Shown: positions 8,836 through 51,966 of the stretch, one piece after another
Numbering within the stretch: the stretch's first letter is position 1
How the letters are laid out: each line of letters opens with the position of its first letter
Assembly: GCF_016623585.1 (NCBI RefSeq)
Contig: NZ_JAEHFY010000010.1
Coordinates: 62,001 to 126,000 of the forward strand
DNA: 64,000 bases
Direction of reading: 5' to 3'
Source of the DNA: Pedobacter segetis
GTDB lineage: Bacteria > Bacteroidota > Bacteroidia > Sphingobacteriales > Sphingobacteriaceae
Program-made: the position numbers and the translations under genes
The notes under the pieces: model-generated
What the model was told of the DNA's origin: nothing
What the model saw: only the letters and a program-made list of their open reading frames with translations
The model's database searches: none

Positions 8836-10395
8836 TTAAAACCCGAATAATCCTCCGCTGTTTGTTCTCGTTTTTTTTCCTGTTATCATTCCAAAAATAC
8901 CCCTTACAATTTCCCTTCCTATTTGGCGGGTAATGGGTGCATTTAGGGCTTCTTCTAACATACTCTTTTCTGGTTTTGTAGCTTTGGTTGTCTTTTGCTC
9001 TTGTATAATTTCTTGTTGGGTTTCATGCTCTTTCATTTTTTGGTTGATGCGGGCCGTTAAGATCTCACAGGCACTTTCTGGGTTAATTGCTTCTTGGTAT
9101 TTTTTAAAAATATCAGAAGTTTTCATCAGTTCTTCACAATCTATATTGCTCATTGGCCCCATCACAGACCGTGGAGGAGTTAAATGCGTAGCAACAACTT
9201 CCGTTGGGATTCCTTTTTCGTTTAATACGGTTATTAGGGCTTGCCCGGTCCCTAAACTAGTTAAAATGGTTTCTATTTCATAAAAGTCTGATTTGGGATA
9301 GGTTTTTACCGTCTTTTTTAAAGCATCCGCATCATTTGGAGTAAATGCCCTTAGTGCATGTTGTACCCTATTCCCTAATTGCCCTAATACGCTTTCTGGA
9401 ACATCAGAGGCAGCCTGGGTACAAAAAAACACTCCCACGCCCTTTGATCTTATTAATCTGATCACTTGTTCAATTTGTTCTAAGAATGCCTTAGAAGAAT
9501 TATTGAAAAGTAAATGTGCCTCATCAAAAAAGAATACTAGTTTAGGCTGGTCTAAATCGCCAGCTTCTGGCAAACTGTTAAAAATCTCTGCTAAAAGGCT
9601 CAATAAAAAAGTAGAATATAACGAAGGTTGGTTTTGAACATCAGAGATGTTTAACAAACTGATCACTCCTTTGCCATCTACTTTTTGATATAGATCTTCG
9701 GTATCAAAAGATTTCTCACCAAACAAGGTGCCCAGGCCTTGCTGCTCTATAGATACTATTTTTCGTAAAATAGTGCCAGATGTAGAAGAAGATATCTTTC
9801 CATAATCTTCTTTGATTTCTGCTGCACCATCACCGTCTGATAAATAGCCCAACAATTTCTTAAGGTCTTCTAAATCAACCATTGCCATTTTTTGGTCATC
9901 GGCATATTTAAAAATGGCTGCTAAAACCCCGGTTTGGGTATCGTTTAAATCTAAAATTTTACCCAATAATACAGGGCCAAATTCAGAAACGGTGGCTCGC
10001 ATGGTTGCACCTAGTTTACCCGAAAGGGAATAAAGCTCAACAGGGAATTCGCTAGGCATAAATGGCTTTTTTAACGCCTCGCCTCGTTCTACCAACTTTG
10101 GGTTTGGTGTACCAGCTTTATTTAAACCAGAAAGATCGCCTTTAACATCGAGCATAAAAACAGGTACCCCTGCATCAGAAAGCTGTTCTGCAATCAGTTG
10201 CAATGTTCTGGTTTTTCCCGTACCTGTAGCACCAGCTATTAAACCATGTCGGTTCATCATCCTCAAAGGAATATTTACCTCGGCTTCTGCAACAATATTT
10301 CCATCTAAAATACCAGCTCCTAAATAAATGGAACTACCTTTTGGAGCGTAAGATTTCTTTACTGCCTCTATAAATGTGTTTTGGTCTTTTGCCAT
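8836..10395 (-). CDS. HerA-like/DUF853 ATPase (YjgR family)
   Basis: This 519-residue protein contains a P-loop GATGTGKT at residues 55-62, preceded by MNRHGLIAG, and a Walker B segment KLVFFFDEAHLLF near residue 290. The sensor region (GVGVFFCTQAASDVPESVLGQ) and the layout match the DUF853 family, typified by E. coli YjgR, within the HerA/FtsK class of hexameric motor ATPases. Its cellular role is not established. The C-terminus (from about 440) is charged and ends in a Gly-rich tail. It lies six bases after the S9 peptidase gene and 24 before the nucleotidyltransferase gene, so it should be co-transcribed with two peptidases, an unexplained pairing. Confidence 0.9.
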   Translation of the reverse strand: MAKDQNTFIEAVKKSYAPKGSSIYLGAGILDGNIVAEAEVNIPLRMMNRHGLIAGATGTGKTRTLQLIAEQLSDAGVPVFMLDVKGDLSGLNKAGTPNPKLVERGEALKKPFMPSEFPVELYSLSGKLGATMRATVSEFGPVLLGKILDLNDTQTGVLAAIFKYADDQKMAMVDLEDLKKLLGYLSDGDGAAEIKEDYGKISSSTSGTILRKIVSIEQQGLGTLFGEKSFDTEDLYQKVDGKGVISLLNISDVQNQPSLYSTFLLSLLAEIFNSLPEAGDLDQPKLVFFFDEAHLLFNNSSKAFLEQIEQVIRLIRSKGVGVFFCTQAASDVPESVLGQLGNRVQHALRAFTPNDADALKKTVKTYPKSDFYEIETILTSLGTGQALITVLNEKGIPTEVVATHLTPPRSVMGPMSNIDCEELMKTSDIFKKYQEAINPESACEILTARINQKMKEHETQQEIIQEQKTTKATKPEKSMLEEALNAPITRQIGREIVRGIFGMITGKKTRTNSGGLFGF

Positions 10396-10401
10396 GGTGG
10401 T

Positions 10402-12852
10402 TTATTTATTTTTCACGTATTTATCCAACCAAGAATCCATCTCCCAAAGCATGTGCAAAATAGATTCTTTAGCCCTGTAACTATGTGCCTCGTAAGGCAA
10501 ATATACTAATCTTGTGATTGCGCCAAACCCTTTTAAGGCACTATAAAATCTTTCGCTTTGTATAGGGAAAGTGCCAGGATTATCATCGGCTTCGCCGTGT
10601 ATCAATAATAAAGGTGCCTTAATTTTATCGGCGTAAGAAAAGGGCGACATTTTATAATACAGTTCTGGTGCTTGCCAATAGGTTCTTTCTTCTGCTTGGA
10701 AACCATTTGGGGTTAAGGTTCTGTTGTAAGCTCCGCTCCTTGCGATTCCCGCCGCAAAAAGATTGGTGTGCGCTAAAAGGTTAGCCGTCATAAAAGCACC
10801 ATAAGAATGCCCTCCAATAGCTATCCTTTTGGCATCTCCAATTCCCATGCCCACAATTTTATTTACTGCTGCCAAAGCATTTTCTTGTAATTGTTCTATA
10901 AAAGTATCGTTAGGGTAATCGTTGCTTTCGCCAACTATTGGCATATCTACATTATCCATTACGGCATATCCCCTGGTAACCCAATAAATTGGCGATGCCC
11001 AAGAAATTTTGCTGAAACGGTAAGGAGAGCCTTTAACCTGCCCTGCCGCCGCAGCCGTTTTATATTCTTTTGGATAAGCCCACATCAAAACGGGTAATTT
11101 ACCTTGCCCTACAGTATAACCGATTGGTAAATATAAATTTGCCGTTAAGTTTAAATTGTCTTCTCTTTTATAGTTAAGTAACTGTTTATTGATTCCAAAT
11201 AATTGGGGATAAGGGTTTTTGAAGAAAGTAAGTTGTTGTGTTTTTCCTTTGCGGTAATCTAAATTGAAATAATTAGCAGGTTCTGCTACAGATTCCCTAC
11301 TGATGATGAGGTTATCTTTATTATCGAAAAATATGGGTTTCTCATAAAAAGGTGCTCTAGAGTGAAAAAGCGTATCAGTCAATTTGGTTTTAACGTTAAA
11401 CTGCAGTAAGAAAGGCCTATCGCCAATTGGTGATGCACCATCAGATATAGAAAAAATATTGATGTTATTAGGATCGGTAGCCCTTCTGATAACGCTATAA
11501 TCTAACAACAGAACATCTCTATTATATTGATTTTTAACCTTAACAAACTCCCCTGGATCAGAGTAAGCATCTTCAGAATATCTATCCCATAAATTTACCC
11601 TGTAGCTGTCGTTTCCCGGTTTGATAAAAACCCTCCTCTCGGCCTTTGTTTTCCACCATCGCTCGGTAACTAGGGCAATCTGATCATCGCCCCAATCAAT
11701 TTTGTTGAAACGTAAATAACAATCTGCCAATTTTAATTTTGTTCCGTAAGGTTCTGTTGCTTTTCGGGTATATAAAACATCCCTAATGGTGCTTGGCTTG
11801 TTTGGATCGCCACCGTCTTGCGCCTCTGCCCAAAAAATGGTTTGCGGTTTATCGGCCCGCCACTCAAATTCCCTGGGCCCGTTTATAACTGCATCAAAAC
11901 CTTGCGGTAAATTATCTGCCAAAGGTACATCGGCAAAATCTTGTACCAACTTACCATATCTATCCCTCACTTCTATCTTGTAAGGAAAATCTTCAATCGG
12001 TACGATGTAAGAATAAGGTTTATGTATAACTGAAAGCATTACCAGCTCTCCATCTGGAGAGAAATCAAAAGATTTATAAATATCGGGGCGGCTGTAATTT
12101 ACCGCTTGGCCATCTAAATAAACCATTTTAAGCTGAGCTGTTAGGTAATAATCTAACTTTAACTCGTCATTTGGGTTTTTTAAGAGGTCTTGATAAGTTC
12201 TATTTGGGGATGGTTTGCCTGTACTTTCTTGAATATTTGGCCCTGCTGATTGAGCGGAAATCGATTTCAGCGATTTTTGATCTATCTTAAATTTAGCTAA
12301 AATCGTTTTGCTATCCGGAGACCATTTAAGCAAAGTCCCATAAGCATCGTTCAACGCAAAATTTGTTAACCTCTTGGCATATTTAGTTTCCAGATCTCCC
12401 AACCATAATTCTATTTCCGTATCTGTGGTAATACTAAAGGCCACCTTAGATTCATCTGGGCAAAAAACAACATTTTTGATCTGTGCATCTTTAGGGATGT
12501 TCAAAAGTTCGAAATCTTCATTACTATCTATCTTTTTAAACTTTAGAGAAGTGTACAAAGCAGACCGCTGGTTTCCATAGTTTTGGGGGTTTACCCTTAA
12601 GCCTGCCAATTTTTCATAAGGGGCTGCAATTTCTTTGATAGAAGGATAACCTGGTTGCTCTAAAATAGCCATGTATTTTGCCCTACCACTTAAAATCACC
12701 GTCCTAGAAACAGATTCATCTACAATTTTAGCGATAGATTCTGGCGGTTTTTGATAACCCGTAACCTCTTGTGCAAAAGAAACATCTAAAGAGAATGCAG
12801 AAACAATAAAAAATGTAAAAAAAGCACATTTTTTAATCTTATAAAAAGTCAT
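10402..12852 (-). CDS. Secreted S9 peptidase of the glutamyl-endopeptidase (S9D-like) type
   Basis: An 816-residue protein with a signal peptide ending near VSFAQ. The N-terminal two-thirds is a WD-like beta-propeller (CPDESKVAFSITTDTEIELW, GELVMLSVIHKPYSY). The C-terminal alpha/beta-hydrolase carries the triad in GGHSYGAFMTANLL (Ser683), HGEADDNPGT (Asp756) and LPYEAHSYRAKES (His790). The stretch SGAYNRTLTPNGFQ and the LHMLWEMDSWL end closely resemble what I know of plant chloroplast glutamyl endopeptidase (MEROPS S9D), so cleavage after Glu in the periplasm is the best guess. It is located six bases from genes on both sides and is co-transcribed with the M42 peptidase. Confidence 0.88.
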   Translation of the reverse strand: MTFYKIKKCAFFTFFIVSAFSLDVSFAQEVTGYQKPPESIAKIVDESVSRTVILSGRAKYMAILEQPGYPSIKEIAAPYEKLAGLRVNPQNYGNQRSALYTSLKFKKIDSNEDFELLNIPKDAQIKNVVFCPDESKVAFSITTDTEIELWLGDLETKYAKRLTNFALNDAYGTLLKWSPDSKTILAKFKIDQKSLKSISAQSAGPNIQESTGKPSPNRTYQDLLKNPNDELKLDYYLTAQLKMVYLDGQAVNYSRPDIYKSFDFSPDGELVMLSVIHKPYSYIVPIEDFPYKIEVRDRYGKLVQDFADVPLADNLPQGFDAVINGPREFEWRADKPQTIFWAEAQDGGDPNKPSTIRDVLYTRKATEPYGTKLKLADCYLRFNKIDWGDDQIALVTERWWKTKAERRVFIKPGNDSYRVNLWDRYSEDAYSDPGEFVKVKNQYNRDVLLLDYSVIRRATDPNNINIFSISDGASPIGDRPFLLQFNVKTKLTDTLFHSRAPFYEKPIFFDNKDNLIISRESVAEPANYFNLDYRKGKTQQLTFFKNPYPQLFGINKQLLNYKREDNLNLTANLYLPIGYTVGQGKLPVLMWAYPKEYKTAAAAGQVKGSPYRFSKISWASPIYWVTRGYAVMDNVDMPIVGESNDYPNDTFIEQLQENALAAVNKIVGMGIGDAKRIAIGGHSYGAFMTANLLAHTNLFAAGIARSGAYNRTLTPNGFQAEERTYWQAPELYYKMSPFSYADKIKAPLLLIHGEADDNPGTFPIQSERFYSALKGFGAITRLVYLPYEAHSYRAKESILHMLWEMDSWLDKYVKNK

Positions 12853-46190: not shown

Positions 46191-46278
46191 TGCTAAAAGA
46201 TATTAAAAAATTGATAAATATTTTTTATTTTGAACATATATGCTTCATATTGTTTAATTTCATTGCAAATATTTGTCC

Positions 46279-47079
46279 ATGGGGAAATTCTACTTGCTAT
46301 TATTCTTTGTTTTTATTTTTATATCGGCCAGGGCACAAGATAACAACGGCCCAAGAATAACAGCTTTAGGCAATGCGGGAGTTGCGTTGCAAGATGTTTG
46401 GTCTGTAAAAAGCAACCAAGCTGGTATTGCTGGTTTAAAAAGGGCTTTTTTGGCCGCGGGTTATGAAAACAAATTTGGTGTAAAAGGTTTAAGCAACCAA
46501 TCTGCGGTTTTCTCTATCCCCGTAAAAGATTATGCCCTTGGCGCATCGTTTAATTCTTATGGCGTTAGTGATTATAACGAGATAAAAACCGGGCTTACTT
46601 TGGCAAGGTCTTTTGGCCCTAAACTATTTTTAGCAATCGGTTTAAATTATCATCAACTAAAAATAACCGATTATGGTAGTGCAAAGGCTGTTTCTGTTGA
46701 TGTTGGCGTACAATACCAAGCTTTCCCTAATTTATGGTTGGCCAGTCATATCTCCAACCCTAATCAAAGCAAATACGACAACAATACCGATCAGATCATA
46801 CCCGCCCACATACAATTTGGGGCAAATTATATATTCTCTGATCAACTTTTGATAACTACCGAAGTAGAAAAGATCTTAGATGCCCAAGCAGATTTTAAAG
46901 CCGGTTTAGAATACAAACTAGTTAAGTTTGTTGCTTTAAGAGGGGGCATATCCGTAAATCCTTTTAAGCAGTACGCTGGTTTTGGTGTTAATTATCAAAG
47001 AATTAATATCGATTTTGCCGTCTCCTCTCATCCGGTTTTGGGTTATTCACCACAAGTAGCTTTAGGGTATGAGTTTTAA
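46279..47079 (+). CDS. PorV/PorQ-like outer-membrane barrel protein
   Basis: A 266-residue protein with a signal peptide (LLLFFVFIFISARAQ) and a barrel of about 14 strands ending in an aromatic C-terminus (GYEF). The N-terminal block RITALGNAGVALQDVWSVKSNQAGIAG is shared with PorV-type proteins that carry T9SS substrates, but it lacks the extra domains of those. It is overlapped by the HHH-barrel gene by 11 bases (start of next inside GTATGAG), showing translational coupling. The function is inferred only from that context: it could be a helper of the HHH barrel. Confidence 0.75.
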   Translation: MGKFYLLLFFVFIFISARAQDNNGPRITALGNAGVALQDVWSVKSNQAGIAGLKRAFLAAGYENKFGVKGLSNQSAVFSIPVKDYALGASFNSYGVSDYNEIKTGLTLARSFGPKLFLAIGLNYHQLKITDYGSAKAVSVDVGVQYQAFPNLWLASHISNPNQSKYDNNTDQIIPAHIQFGANYIFSDQLLITTEVEKILDAQADFKAGLEYKLVKFVALRGGISVNPFKQYAGFGVNYQRINIDFAVSSHPVLGYSPQVALGYEF

Positions 47080-49120
47080 AACTAAGCTATTTTTACTTTT
47101 TTCTTTGTTGGTTTTTAGCAAAGTAAGTTTTGCCCAAACAAGCGACGACCCTGATATAGAGTATATCATAGAATCTATTGCAAGTAACCAGACCCAAGAT
47201 TATGATTATTCTGAATTAATTGATAGGCTTACCTATTACAAACGCAACAAAATTAACCTCAATAAAACCTCTAAAGAGCAATTACAAGAACTGGTATTTT
47301 TAAATCCTTTACAAATAGATGCGCTTTTGAACCATATTGCCGTTAACGGGAAATTAATAAATGTATTAGAATTACAGAGCATTAAAGGTTTTGATCTTGA
47401 AACGATCAAAAACTTGCTCCGTTTTGCAGATATCAACACGCCATCAGGTTTTGAGAATTTCTCTTTTAATAAACTTTTTAAAGATGGCAGAAACGATCTT
47501 TTAGTAAGATATAGTAGATATTTAGAACAGCAGCAAGGATTCTCGCCCGCTAAGTCAACATCAACTAGTAGATATTTAGGCACACCAGAAAGGGTTTTTA
47601 CCAGGTATAGGTTTGCTTATAGCAACAATATTGAGTTTTCATTAAACCTAGAAAAAGACCCCGGAGAAAAGTATTTGAACGGTAATTATGGCCCAGATTT
47701 TTCTTCGGCGAGCTTGTACATTAAAGATCTAGGCAAAGTAAAAAAATTGGTAATTGGCGATTATTCTTTACAATTTGGCCAAGGTTTAACTTTATGGAGC
47801 GGATTGAGCTTTGGGAAAGGTGCCGACATTTTTACGGTGGCCAAACAAGACATTGGCCTAAAAAACTATACCTCTATCAATGAATTTTCTTTTTTTAGAG
47901 GGGTAGCCACGCAAATAAATTTTGGAAAATTTGATTTTACGCCTTTTGTATCTTATAATAAGATTGATGCTGGGTTGGCATTAAACCCGCTTACCAATTT
48001 AGAAGAAATATCTTCATTACAACAAAGCGGGCTGCACCGTACAAGTAGCGAATTAAAAAACAGGAGAAGGATTTCACAATTGGTTTTTGGAGGTAATTTA
48101 CAATACAATTATAAGAAGCTTTCTATTGGTTTAACGGGATACCATAGCAATTACAGTCAAGATTTTGCACCTGGCAACTCTGTTTATAACCAGTTTGATT
48201 TTACCGGAAACTCTTTAAACAATGTCGGGATCAATTACAGCTACACGTTAAACAACACTTATTTTTTTGGGGAGTTTGCACATAGCTTAAATTCTGGTAT
48301 AGCCTACATCAACGGTTTAATAAGCAGTTTGTCTCCTACTGTTTCAGCGGTTTTGTTCAACAGAAATTATCAAAAAGATTATTATTCTTTTTATAACCAG
48401 GGCATAGGCGAAAGCAGCACTGCCGTAAACGAAAAAGGGTTTTATGCAGGCTTACAAATTAAACCAGATCGCCAGTTTGAATTAGATTTTTATAGCGATT
48501 TATTTAAGTTCCCTTATTTAAAATTTGGGGTCGATGCTCCATCGCAAGGATATGATATTTTTAGCCAGTTTAGTTTTACGCCCAATAAAACAACCAGGTT
48601 AACCTTAAGGTACCAGTTTCAAAACAAACAACAAAATGATACCCAACCAACATATACCAATGTGCTTGCTTTTGCAAAAAAATCTAATTACAGGGCAGAT
48701 TTGTTGTACCAAGTAAATAAAAGCTTTTCGTTGCGTAACAGGATCGAGATTGTTCAATACCATGAAGAAAACAAAGCAAACAGATATGGATTTTTAGCCT
48801 ATCAAGATGTTATATATAGCCCTTTAAGCTCTAGATGGTCTGGTAACACAAGGTTGGCCTTGTTTGATACCGATGGTTTTGATACTAGGATTTATGCCTA
48901 TGAAAACGATGTTCTTTACGGATTCTCTATCCCAGGTTTCCAAAACAGGGGAGTAAGGTATTATTTGAATGCCCGTTATAACGTTAAAAGAGGGGTTGAT
49001 CTATGGATGAAATATAGCTTAACCAAATTTAACGATCAACAAACCGTGGGTTCTGGTTTAGATCAAATTCAAGGAGATTTAAGATCTGAGTTGAAATTGC
49101 AGTTAAGGCTTCAATTTTAG
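47069..49120 (+). CDS. Helix-hairpin-helix outer-membrane barrel protein
   Basis: A 683-residue protein: signal peptide (LFSLLVFSKVSFAQ), then a tandem helix-hairpin-helix region (about 55-125: KINLNKTSKEQLQELVFLNP, VLELQSIKGFDLETIKNLL) like that of ComEA. A long beta-barrel follows (from about 160 to the end, ending LKLQLRLQF). The HHH motif is a DNA-binding fold, and the fusion places a DNA-binding domain at the periplasmic mouth of an outer-membrane barrel. It lies between a PorV-like gene (11-base overlap) and comEC (3-base gap), which suggests a DNA-uptake role; no such activity is proven. Confidence 0.82.
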   Translation: MSFKTKLFLLFSLLVFSKVSFAQTSDDPDIEYIIESIASNQTQDYDYSELIDRLTYYKRNKINLNKTSKEQLQELVFLNPLQIDALLNHIAVNGKLINVLELQSIKGFDLETIKNLLRFADINTPSGFENFSFNKLFKDGRNDLLVRYSRYLEQQQGFSPAKSTSTSRYLGTPERVFTRYRFAYSNNIEFSLNLEKDPGEKYLNGNYGPDFSSASLYIKDLGKVKKLVIGDYSLQFGQGLTLWSGLSFGKGADIFTVAKQDIGLKNYTSINEFSFFRGVATQINFGKFDFTPFVSYNKIDAGLALNPLTNLEEISSLQQSGLHRTSSELKNRRRISQLVFGGNLQYNYKKLSIGLTGYHSNYSQDFAPGNSVYNQFDFTGNSLNNVGINYSYTLNNTYFFGEFAHSLNSGIAYINGLISSLSPTVSAVLFNRNYQKDYYSFYNQGIGESSTAVNEKGFYAGLQIKPDRQFELDFYSDLFKFPYLKFGVDAPSQGYDIFSQFSFTPNKTTRLTLRYQFQNKQQNDTQPTYTNVLAFAKKSNYRADLLYQVNKSFSLRNRIEIVQYHEENKANRYGFLAYQDVIYSPLSSRWSGNTRLALFDTDGFDTRIYAYENDVLYGFSIPGFQNRGVRYYLNARYNVKRGVDLWMKYSLTKFNDQQTVGSGLDQIQGDLRSELKLQLRLQF

Positions 49121-49123
49121 GGT

Positions 49124-51190
49124 ATGATTGCCTATTATAAAACCGAGGTCCCTTTTATCAGGTTGGTTTTGTTTTTTATTTTGGGGATAAGCATTTCCAT
49201 TCTATTTGATATCGCTCCAAATAATTTATTCCCTTTAGGTTGGTTAATATTAATCTTGGTTAGCATCGGCTTTGGCCTTCTAAACAAAAAGAAACCCCAT
49301 TATTTTGGCTCTTATATCTTCGGTACGCTTGTTTATGTTTTGATGATATTATCAGGCATCATTATTTGTAACCAGCATAAAGAAATTTATAGAAGCAACC
49401 ATTTCTCAAAAATAGGTGCCAAATATTTAACCGCTTATCTATTAGAAGAACCTAAAATTAAGGGAGATATTGCAAGGTTTAACGTTAGCGTAACACAAAA
49501 CATCCAAGATAAGCGCATCATCAGAACGCAGGGGAAACTATTACTGGCCATGAGGTTTGATTCGACAAAAAAGATTGACCTCCATTATGGCGATATGCTG
49601 CTTTTAAAGGCGAAATATAAAGAGACAGAGCCCGCATATAATCCGGCAGAATTTAATTACAAAAGGTTCTTAAGCTTTCAACAAGTTTATCATCAAACAT
49701 TTATCAACCAAAAAGAAACAAAAAAACTAGGCGAACACCAAGGAAATTTAATCAGAGAATTTGCGCTAAAATTTAGGGAAAGGCAAATTTTAAAGTTTGA
49801 TGCGTATTTAAAAGATACGGCGATAAGAGCGGTGGCATCTACATTGATCTTGGGTTATAGGGCAGAATTGAATAAAGATACTTTAGAGACCTATACAAAA
49901 ACAGGTACTATGCATGTGCTTTCTGTTTCGGGGATGCATGTAGGTATAGTTGTGGTTTTATTGGTTTTTGCTTTTAGTTTTTTAAATAAAACCAAACGGG
50001 GAAGGCTTTTATCTACCATCACGATAATCGCTATAATTTGGTTTTATGCCCTAATTACAGGTTTTGCGCCATCTATAGAAAGAGCGGCGATAATGGTAAC
50101 TTTTATTATGTTGGCAAAAGCCCGCTCCGTTAAAGCAAATATATTTAACGTGATCGCGATTACGGCCTTTATCATTTTGATAACAGATCCTTTTGCATTG
50201 ATAAATGTTGGCTTTCAACTATCTTTTATAGCGGTTGCAGGCATTATTTATCTACAGCCCCTCATTTACGATTTTTACAATACAACAAATAAGTTGTTGG
50301 ATGTAATTTGGAAAGTAATCTCTGTATCCATCGCGGCCCAAATATCAACCGCTCCGATCAGTTTATATTATTTTCATCAATTCCCTATCTATTTTATCAT
50401 AAGCAATGTCTTTATCTTTTTACCGGCTATACTCATCATGTATTTTGGCTTGTTCTTTTTGATTTTTTACAGCTTCCCTCCTATTGCGGCAGTTTTTGCT
50501 TTTTGTTTACAAACAACTATCAAATACACCAACGAAGGTTTAAAACTTATCGAGAACATAGCCCACGCAAATATTACCCAAATTTGGTGGGGAGCATTAG
50601 AGATTTTACTTTTTTACGGTTTCTTCCTTTTTGGTTTCGCTGCTATCAAACGCAAAAAATATCTAAAATTAGCCTGTATTTGTCTATTGCTTTTAATCCT
50701 AACGATCAACATTAAACAATTTTATCATGTACAACAAAAACAAGCTGTATTTTTTGCCTTAAGAAAAAACACGGCTGTTGCATTGATCAAGGGAAAAACC
50801 GCAGTTTTAATTACAGATCTAAAAGCAGATGAATTTACTTATCAGTTCTCGGTAAAACCGTATTTGGATAGTTGCCAAATCAATTATATAGAATGGATAA
50901 ATCCCCATCTTATACAAGATGAAAAATTGATTAGCTTTGAAGGTAAGAAACTTAAGATCATCAATCATAAACTAAATAATTTTGCTGTATCTAAACAAGA
51001 TTGGCTTTTATTGAGTAGTGATAAAAAGCAAGGCCTAAAATCTATAATTGATGCAAATACATTTGAAGAGTTGTTTATAGATGGTAAAAACAGAGATTTT
51101 GTGATCGAGGATCTTAAAAACCAAGCAGAAAATTTAGGGTTAAAACCTCATGTCCTTAAAAGAGATTTTGCGATAGAAATTAAATTGTAG
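49124..51190 (+). CDS. comEC: ComEC/Rec2-family DNA-uptake channel
   Basis: A 688-residue inner-membrane protein with an N-terminal DUF4131 segment (about 25-200), a competence domain of about eight to ten helices (MHVLSVSGMHVGIVVVLLVFAF, TGFAPSIERAAIMV, VGFQLSFIAVAGII) and a C-terminal soluble part. The last part is in the position of the metallo-beta-lactamase domain but lacks the HxHxDH motif (AVFFALRKNTAVALIKGK), so it is short or degenerate, as in many Bacteroidota ComEC. It would pass single-stranded DNA into the cytoplasm. It starts three bases after the HHH-barrel stop and is followed by an enoyl-CoA hydratase gene after six bases. Confidence 0.92.
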   Translation: MIAYYKTEVPFIRLVLFFILGISISILFDIAPNNLFPLGWLILILVSIGFGLLNKKKPHYFGSYIFGTLVYVLMILSGIIICNQHKEIYRSNHFSKIGAKYLTAYLLEEPKIKGDIARFNVSVTQNIQDKRIIRTQGKLLLAMRFDSTKKIDLHYGDMLLLKAKYKETEPAYNPAEFNYKRFLSFQQVYHQTFINQKETKKLGEHQGNLIREFALKFRERQILKFDAYLKDTAIRAVASTLILGYRAELNKDTLETYTKTGTMHVLSVSGMHVGIVVVLLVFAFSFLNKTKRGRLLSTITIIAIIWFYALITGFAPSIERAAIMVTFIMLAKARSVKANIFNVIAITAFIILITDPFALINVGFQLSFIAVAGIIYLQPLIYDFYNTTNKLLDVIWKVISVSIAAQISTAPISLYYFHQFPIYFIISNVFIFLPAILIMYFGLFFLIFYSFPPIAAVFAFCLQTTIKYTNEGLKLIENIAHANITQIWWGALEILLFYGFFLFGFAAIKRKKYLKLACICLLLLILTINIKQFYHVQQKQAVFFALRKNTAVALIKGKTAVLITDLKADEFTYQFSVKPYLDSCQINYIEWINPHLIQDEKLISFEGKKLKIINHKLNNFAVSKQDWLLLSSDKKQGLKSIIDANTFEELFIDGKNRDFVIEDLKNQAENLGLKPHVLKRDFAIEIKL

Positions 51191-51195
51191 CATAG

Positions 51196-51966
51196 ATGTT
51201 TGTAGATTATCAACTAAAAAATAGAGTAGCAAATATAGTTATCAATAGGCCCGATAAGAGAAATGCTTTAAACGCAGAATTGGTTGCCCAACTTACACAA
51301 GCTTTTGAAAAAGCAGAACAAGATGAAAACGTAAAAGTTATTGTTTTAAAAGCCATGGGCGATGTTTTTAGTGCTGGCGCAGATTTAGATTATCTTAAAA
51401 AACTACAATCTAATTCTTTTGATGAAAACTTAAAAGACTCTAACCAATTGAGAAAACTATTCCAATTGATATATGAACAACCAAAAATAGTGATCGCCCA
51501 AGTACAAGGGCATGCTATAGCTGGCGGTTGTGGTTTAGCATCAGTTTGCGATTTTATATTTAGCATACCCGAGGCAAAATTTGGTTATACGGAAGTTAAA
51601 ATTGGTTTTATCCCAGCAATTGTTGCCGTTTTCTTGTTAAGAAAAATTGGGGAAGGCTTAACAAAAGAGCTTGTTTTTAGTGGCGATTTAATAGATGCGG
51701 AAAGGGCAAAACAAATAAACCTGATCAATTTTATTTGCCCAAACAATGAGATTGAAAACGAAGTTGTGAAATTTGCAGAAAAGCTTTGTGTCTCCACATC
51801 TGCCCAATCAATAGCGTTAACCAAACAACTGCTAAATAAAGTGCAAGATCAACCATTAGATGAGGCTTTGGATTTTGCCGCAGAAATGAACGCACACGCC
51901 CGATCTACAAACGACTGCAAAAACGGAATACAAGCATTTTTGGATAAGAAGAAAATAATTTGGTAA
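51196..51966 (+). CDS. Enoyl-CoA hydratase/isomerase-family protein
   Basis: A 256-residue crotonase-fold enzyme with the two oxyanion-hole segments KAMGDVFSAGADLDYL and GHAIAGGCGLASVCDF, and YTEVKIGFIPAIVAVFLL. The Glu at position of the first catalytic residue is not clear (CGLASVCDF has no acidic residue), while the second Glu/neighbour lies in TEVKIG. It resembles methylglutaconyl-CoA hydratase-like proteins. The gene follows comEC by six bases and may be co-transcribed, with no evident functional link. Confidence 0.9.
   Translation: MFVDYQLKNRVANIVINRPDKRNALNAELVAQLTQAFEKAEQDENVKVIVLKAMGDVFSAGADLDYLKKLQSNSFDENLKDSNQLRKLFQLIYEQPKIVIAQVQGHAIAGGCGLASVCDFIFSIPEAKFGYTEVKIGFIPAIVAVFLLRKIGEGLTKELVFSGDLIDAERAKQINLINFICPNNEIENEVVKFAEKLCVSTSAQSIALTKQLLNKVQDQPLDEALDFAAEMNAHARSTNDCKNGIQAFLDKKKIIW

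Follow-up and report, generated by a model that had tools for sequence, protein, structure and literature searches.

A helix-hairpin-helix outer-membrane barrel, next to comEC in Sphingobacteriaceae, is a candidate DNA-uptake component of Bacteroidota

A 64,000-nucleotide stretch of the Pedobacter segetis genome (contig NZ_JAEHFY010000010.1, positions 62,001 to 126,000; hereafter the window) carries consecutive genes for a PorV-like protein, a helix-hairpin-helix (HHH) protein with a predicted outer-membrane barrel (the HHH barrel) and ComEC. We put about an even chance on the HHH barrel being an outer-membrane component of DNA uptake. Support comes from the coupling of the barrel and ComEC genes kept in Sphingobacteriaceae, homology to ComEA, the predicted 24-strand barrel, the lack of a secretin match and the alternation with a TonB-type barrel. 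From the sequence comparisons, the foremost of the roles proposed for the HHH-barrel family, which is widespread in the phylum, is DNA uptake. The three-gene "complete system" is confined to one bacterial family. The features of the window that bear on this are as follows.

47069..49120, + strand: HHH barrel, with an N-terminal ComEA-type HHH domain and a predicted 24-strand outer-membrane barrel
47249..47428, + strand: HHH (ComEA-type) domain, residues 61-120, GxG in neither hairpin
47489..49114, + strand: predicted barrel domain with 24 long strands (DSSP strand count), residues 141-682, C-terminal Phe
49124..51190, + strand: ComEC, DUF4131 and Competence domains without a Lactamase_B match (PF03772, PF13567)
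46279..47079, + strand: PorV-like 14-strand FadL-fold outer-membrane protein (NF033709, family profile, AF2 model, Foldseek)
51196..51966, + strand: enoyl-CoA hydratase gene, 5 bases 3' of ComEC (PF00378)

The initial annotation described the middle protein as a fusion of ComEA-like HHH motifs to a long beta-barrel, and both parts were recovered, by a ComEA-type profile match and a predicted 24-strand barrel. Pfam HHH_3 matched residues 59-116 (E 2e-4), short of the Pfam cut-off; NCBIfam comE scored 20.6 bits (cut-off 152), and a PDB search with the single sequence gave no match. A family profile built from 45 relatives matched ComEA (8dss_A, E 7e-14, profile positions 65-125; 8dfk, E 7e-13), EEPD1 (E 1.6e-21) and Tex (E 1e-9), all of which bind DNA, and also reached two HHH proteins not known to bind DNA, GspK (E 0.004) and PsbU (E 0.07). 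On this profile evidence, the HHH domain is homologous to ComEA. Unlike ComEA, the protein is not small and soluble or membrane-anchored; it has 683 amino acids, most of them in the predicted barrel.

The predicted structure of the HHH barrel is confident (pLDDT 87.7, pTM 0.83) and has 24 long strands by DSSP count. The top Foldseek match was the MtrB chain of 6r2q (8.7e-12), and porins were matched too. In VIA-align, AlgE reached a Z of up to 14.5 over about 300 residues at 5.8-6.6 Å and the best ushers 13.5-13.7, so that the two lie within Z 1. Alignments to nine usher entries cover the barrel from end to end (3.7-4.3 Å, 352-379 residues, 7-11% identity); 9fw9_D gave Z 13.3 with an rmsd of 3.7 Å over 374 residues, and the entries 3ohn and 2vqi only 5.3-5.8 Å. 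A Pfam search found no usher family on the HHH barrel. Judged from the model, the resemblance to ushers and other barrels is a match of fold and is not read as kinship. The order and alternation of the strands were the sole basis for telling apart loop sides and inward faces. Conserved extracellular loops might have pointed to an internal gate (loops 1.62, strands 1.63 bits), but this argument was dropped because the PorV-like control shows the same pattern (1.71 and 1.65). Two family members stand out in length. The HHH-barrel open reading frame (ORF) of L049 (G179, 8950-12075) is unusually long at 1042 amino acids, and in Pedobacter fastidiosus (L122, 7001-9031) the best ORF has 362 amino acids, yet tblastn spans the whole query; this frame may be interrupted.

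The arrangement at the window locus was reproduced from ORF coordinates and from start and stop codons, as the initial annotation had given it. The three genes are consecutive ORFs on the + strand with an 11-base overlap and then a 3-base gap: the HHH-barrel ATG at 47069 lies inside the PorV-like gene, whose TAA ends at 47079, and the HHH-barrel TAG ends at 49120, before the ComEC ATG at 49124. The PorV-like gene has an alternative in-frame start, TTG at 46273, and a divergent metallophosphoesterase gene upstream. The identity of the third gene was also upheld. ComEC matches PF03772 (E 2.8e-60) and PF13567 (E 9.3e-22), both over curated cut-offs, and is the sole PF03772 match in the window genome. 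A Pfam search found no Lactamase_B in it. Competence plus DUF4131 without Lactamase_B is given as the commonest ComEC make-up in Bacteroidetes (PMC6299819).

Two sets of relatives were compared. The first comprises 77 loci, the window and 76 others, with roughly a single locus for each genus (2-3 loci each for g49, g54 and g70). The PorV-like gene is directly upstream of the barrel gene in 48 of them, on the same strand within five genes in 51, and nine genes off in one more. The second set comprises the best 80 of 578 confirmed candidate loci, with family taken from the NCBI name, and is therefore biased to near relatives; among these the nearest relative of the middle protein is from Pedobacter psychrophilus (85% identity; records of the same genome were possibly omitted). 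ComEC follows the barrel in 35 of the 37 Sphingobacteriaceae loci with downstream room, the exceptions being L126 and L128 (Parapedobacter). This junction spans 37-85% barrel identity to the window, and in 21 of these 35 loci the barrel and ComEC frames overlap when starts are picked mechanically. The PorV-like gene is upstream in 20 of the 37 Sphingobacteriaceae loci with upstream room. Among the remaining loci, ComEC is found in 4/39 (L108, L111, L112, L129; two are titled Sphingobacteriales) and the PorV-like gene in 38/39. The recurrence of both junctions, barrel-ComEC (35/37) and PorV-like-barrel (51/77), exceeds chance. From these counts, the PorV-like and barrel genes make the older pairing, whereas the barrel-ComEC junction arose at the level of the family and has persisted where the PorV-like gene was lost. 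Of the tight three-gene unit proposed in the initial annotation, the barrel-ComEC junction is borne out within Sphingobacteriaceae.

Of the 296 genomes sampled from the phylum, 224 gave an HHH-barrel match at E<=1e-3 in a single-sequence search and 224 at E<=1e-40 in a profile search. Five genomes lie between 1e-40 and 1e-20 (G001, G059, G101, G156, G232), and the 67 with weaker or no matches are read as having other HHH proteins or none. In the order of G238, 128 of 149 genomes have the barrel at E<=1e-20. ComEC is present in 288 of 296 genomes, so that co-occurrence of barrel and ComEC is nearly uninformative. The sole sampled family without ComEC is f37, in which 7/7 genomes also lack the HHH barrel; this counts as one event. 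The f37 genomes are G167, G207, G215, G246, G258, G270 and G278, and SprA is present in the two tested. Family f17 was recognised as Chlorobiaceae by the FMO protein (3/3 tested, against 0/3 others), and all three FMO-identified genomes have the HHH barrel. Members of the Chlorobiaceae are transformed naturally: natural transformation of Chlorobaculum limnaeum is used in PMC3613366, which also cites, by title, natural transformation of Chlorobaculum tepidum.

The host genome (3.84 Mb, 99.84% complete) has no PF00263 secretin match, which agrees with the suggestion that the HHH barrel replaces a secretin-based path. Secretin and SprA were searched in 80 genomes chosen out of the 296. Secretin was found in 26/80 overall and in 3/43 genomes of the window's family or class; SprA was matched in 74/80, 73 of them over the cut-off and G269 at only 9e-4. 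Four barrel-bearing genomes (G002, G230, G238, G117) have neither a SprA nor a secretin match. In Riemerella, transformation requires both RS04915, a predicted outer-membrane barrel that carries a carboxypeptidase-regulatory domain, and the adjacent RS04920 (DUF5689) (PMC8459023). As the query for such TonB-type barrels we used an f4 barrel (L188) beside a DUF5689 gene, a pairing also seen in one f3 genome (PF18942); orthology to the Riemerella barrel is judged from this gene pairing and make-up. Strong matches (E<=1e-60) were found in 45 of 73 genomes of the window's family or class and in 0 of 223 others, and further matches in the same genomes reached about 1e-40 at best. The window genome has no such barrel at E<=1e-10 with the f4 query.

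Among the 73 genomes, 24 have only the HHH barrel and 39 only the TonB barrel; six have both and four have neither. A quick tree was built from SprA for 40 genomes, two of them outgroups and 38 from among the 73; for lack of SprA it omits G269 and the f11 genomes, in which both barrels occur. On it the HHH state changes five times and the TonB state eight times. The TonB barrel is present in four of the five lineages without the HHH barrel (f3 and f4 except G134 in f4, G017, G126 with G150, and G115), and the fifth, f1 g4, has neither. Independent pairs were opposite in 3.2 cases on average, same in 0.0 and without difference in 1.8. The two barrel families thus largely alternate in near genomes. 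The f3/f4 clade is probably Weeksellaceae/Flavobacteriaceae.

Several observations weigh against a role in DNA uptake. GxG, the motif of DNA-binding HHH hairpins, is absent from hairpin 1 in all 77 loci and from hairpin 2 in 65, leaving 12/77 (the count includes L099 and L101, which have no recognisable HHH stretch), and the HHH stretch has a net charge of +1 in the window and of -1.1 as the family mean. The inward barrel face is only mildly positive by strand alternation (24 K/R vs 18 D/E), which is not decisive as a sign of a DNA channel. Phylum-wide the three-gene unit does not hold: ComEC is downstream of the barrel in only 4/77 loci, all from the window's family, and the barrel gene lies away from it in 73/77, the very finding that the initial annotation had named as speaking against it; a model from the four ComEC-linked loci found no further ComEC in the 77 stretches at E<=1. 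ComEC adjacency looks like a single family-level event. In genus f1 g4, of the same family, the order MerR, ComEC, DUF4412 occurs without PorV-like or barrel genes in two genomes (L249, 5389-8637; L250, 4636-7852); in the window, other genes likewise stand between MerR, ComEC and DUF4412. This genus keeps ComEC with neither the HHH barrel nor a strong TonB-barrel match, f29 genomes have ComEC without either barrel, and the fragmented genome G260 has the barrel without a ComEC match. Secretin is present in two of three Chlorobiaceae tested. The alternation includes the six genomes with both barrels and comprises only five independent contrasts, so that the sign test (median p 0.25) cannot reach significance. 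The PorV-like gene was not found in 17/37 Sphingobacteriaceae loci, all 17 of which keep barrel-ComEC.

One alternative is that the HHH barrel is a DNA-unrelated outer-membrane transporter or porin, with the HHH domain repurposed for protein-protein contact and comEC brought into the operon by chance in one family. The degenerate hairpins, the reach of the profile to GspK and PsbU, the distance from comEC in most loci and the likeness of the model to AlgE and porins would all fit. The enoyl-CoA hydratase gene, which the initial annotation did not mention, is just as near to comEC here and also lies near it in many Sphingobacteriaceae loci, so that tight spacing alone is weak evidence; that gene is perhaps co-transcribed with comEC without an evident functional link. 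We nevertheless regard a DNA-unrelated barrel as less likely, since EEPD1, ComEA and Tex lead the HHH profile matches, the comEC coupling is retained even without the PorV-like gene, and the barrel alternates with a family proven in transformation. The role of DNA receptor or pore that the initial annotation suggested for the protein is kept in part: the predicted wide barrel, the ComEA-type fold and the alternation favour it, and the loss of GxG, in both hairpins of the window copy, does not.

Another alternative is that the HHH barrel and the PorV-like protein belong to the type IX secretion system (T9SS), as an accessory translocon beside SprA. The PorV-like protein matches NF033709 PorV_fam at E 5.8e-14 (52.4 bits, below the cut-off of 90), and its family profile matches the Flavobacterium johnsoniae T9SS PorV 6h3i_F (E 3.3e-9). 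In the AF2 model (pLDDT 93.1) it forms a barrel of 14 strands, and its nearest structural neighbours are PorV and FadL (Foldseek TMq 0.77 for 8gl6_F and 0.81 for 6h3i_F). In 39/77 loci a porD-type gene (DUF4835, T9SS) lies upstream, on the other strand and no more than eight genes away; in 33 loci it occupies position -2, and in 36 of the 39 the PorV-like gene is there too. The porD-type gene occurs in 0/22 loci of the window's class and is present, for example, in L045, L046, L063 and L087. Among the 45 largest neighbour clusters, a family search gave a name to the PorD cluster only, through one member, its other members being placed with it by BLAST clustering; one single neighbour of L092 was also named, and a DNA-processing neighbour may recur among the remaining clusters. 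Six barrel-bearing genomes have no SprA match (G002, G230, G238, G117, G063, G106), and five of these six have no PorV-like match, as a T9SS role would have it; in the sixth, G063, the PorV-like match is away from the barrel. On account of the same six genomes the HHH barrel is rejected as a component of the T9SS translocon, and it is absent from the 11 SprA-bearing f3/f4 genomes tested. An accessory translocon is thus quite improbable, and a T9SS link is limited at most to the PorV-like partner. In 28 genomes searched at E<=1e-5, no PorV-like match was found in nine that bear the barrel (G002, G230, G238, G117, G106, G020, G221, G249, G190). Because of these nine genomes and the 17/37 loci, the PorV-like protein, proposed as a helper in the initial annotation, is not an obligatory one; that the partner is often missing from barrel-bearing genomes also counts against a role of the barrel in DNA uptake. 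Two oddities of the PorV-like family were seen, an unusually long ORF of about 925 amino acids in L064 (11163-13940) and 14 PorV-profile matches in G179.

Uptake of DNA or nucleic-acid fragments as a nutrient, or release of DNA, without service to natural transformation would use the same anatomy and would suit a gene not tied to comEC outside one family, yet the comEC coupling in Sphingobacteriaceae makes this the least probable of the alternatives.

If the HHH barrel acts in DNA uptake, it would provide the outer-membrane step of a secretin-free Bacteroidota route. DNA would pass through the wide lumen of the 24-strand barrel, and the N-terminal HHH domain, presumably periplasmic, would receive or guide it, or dock periplasmic uptake proteins; because the hairpins are degenerate, docking is as likely a role as direct DNA binding. 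A candidate docking partner, which would be a ComEA-like protein of the periplasm, is a separate triple-HHH protein encoded elsewhere in the window genome (L193, about 991-1902; G000:C71), which has an N-terminal hydrophobic stretch and whose gene adjoins, by eye, a likely adenine phosphoribosyltransferase gene. It is like Riemerella RS02645 in make-up; RS02645 is essential for transformation and has three HHH domains according to its authors (PMC8459023). DNA would then be handed to ComEC in the inner membrane, which would take one strand in. The PorV-like protein may be an accessory 14-strand partner for assembly, gating or plugging, absent from several lineages. In Sphingobacteriaceae, the barrel gene would have become closely coupled to comEC.

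In Porphyromonas gingivalis, ComEA and ComEC are essential and import into the periplasm is called unclear (PMC11532111). Its ComEA gene PGN_0421, with a published HHH region at 94-165, may encode either a small ComEA or an HHH barrel. For Riemerella, outer-membrane DNA passage is part of a speculative model (PMC8459023). Besides that paper, no description of the HHH-barrel family or of a Bacteroidota outer-membrane DNA route was found, judged by titles and abstract starts in literature without preprints and most subscription journals. Passages of PMC6668835 and PMC10434189 gave nothing decisive, and the review PMC12236230 does not name the taxa looked for. The HHH-barrel family is a widespread candidate, with a confident predicted structure, for this open step. 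We tentatively extend this to a broader scenario, in which DNA enters most members of the phylum, Chlorobiaceae and Sphingobacteriaceae being the extremes, through a hitherto undescribed barrel of 24 strands made from a single chain that includes a ComEA-type domain, which a TonB-type barrel replaced in the f3/f4 clade and parts of another family, and which would be the channel left open for P. gingivalis; we hold it as possible rather than probable. If DNA does cross the outer membrane through the HHH barrel, the channel would have a new architecture, and its distribution would suggest repeated replacement of the outer-membrane step of transformation around a constant ComEC.

The HHH barrel shares features with several known systems. 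With ComEA it has the HHH domain in common (8dss E 7e-14) and, in one family, a comEC neighbour; it differs in its fusion to a predicted outer-membrane barrel, in having mostly lost GxG and in the presence of a separate triple-HHH protein in the genome. Riemerella anatipestifer RA0C_RS04915 with RS04920 is also a Bacteroidota outer-membrane barrel system proposed for DNA passage (PMC8459023), but it has a carboxypeptidase-regulatory domain, a DUF5689 partner and no HHH. The PilQ secretin of type IV pilus competence, which is a ring, would do the same job of bringing DNA across the outer membrane, whereas the HHH barrel is a predicted single-chain barrel, and secretin is unmatched in the window genome and in 40/43 genomes of its family or class. 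PorV accompanies the 36-strand SprA, and BamA has 16 strands. The FadL-type BamG accompanies BamA in the barrel assembly machinery of Bacteroidota (PMC12611786). SprA-PorV and BamA-BamG thus combine a machine barrel with a 14-strand FadL-type partner, as do the HHH barrel and the PorV-like protein; the HHH barrel differs from SprA and BamA in its 24 predicted strands and in often having no PorV-like match. The FimD/PapC chaperone-usher pores have a similar 24-strand barrel, at a Z that other barrels also reach.

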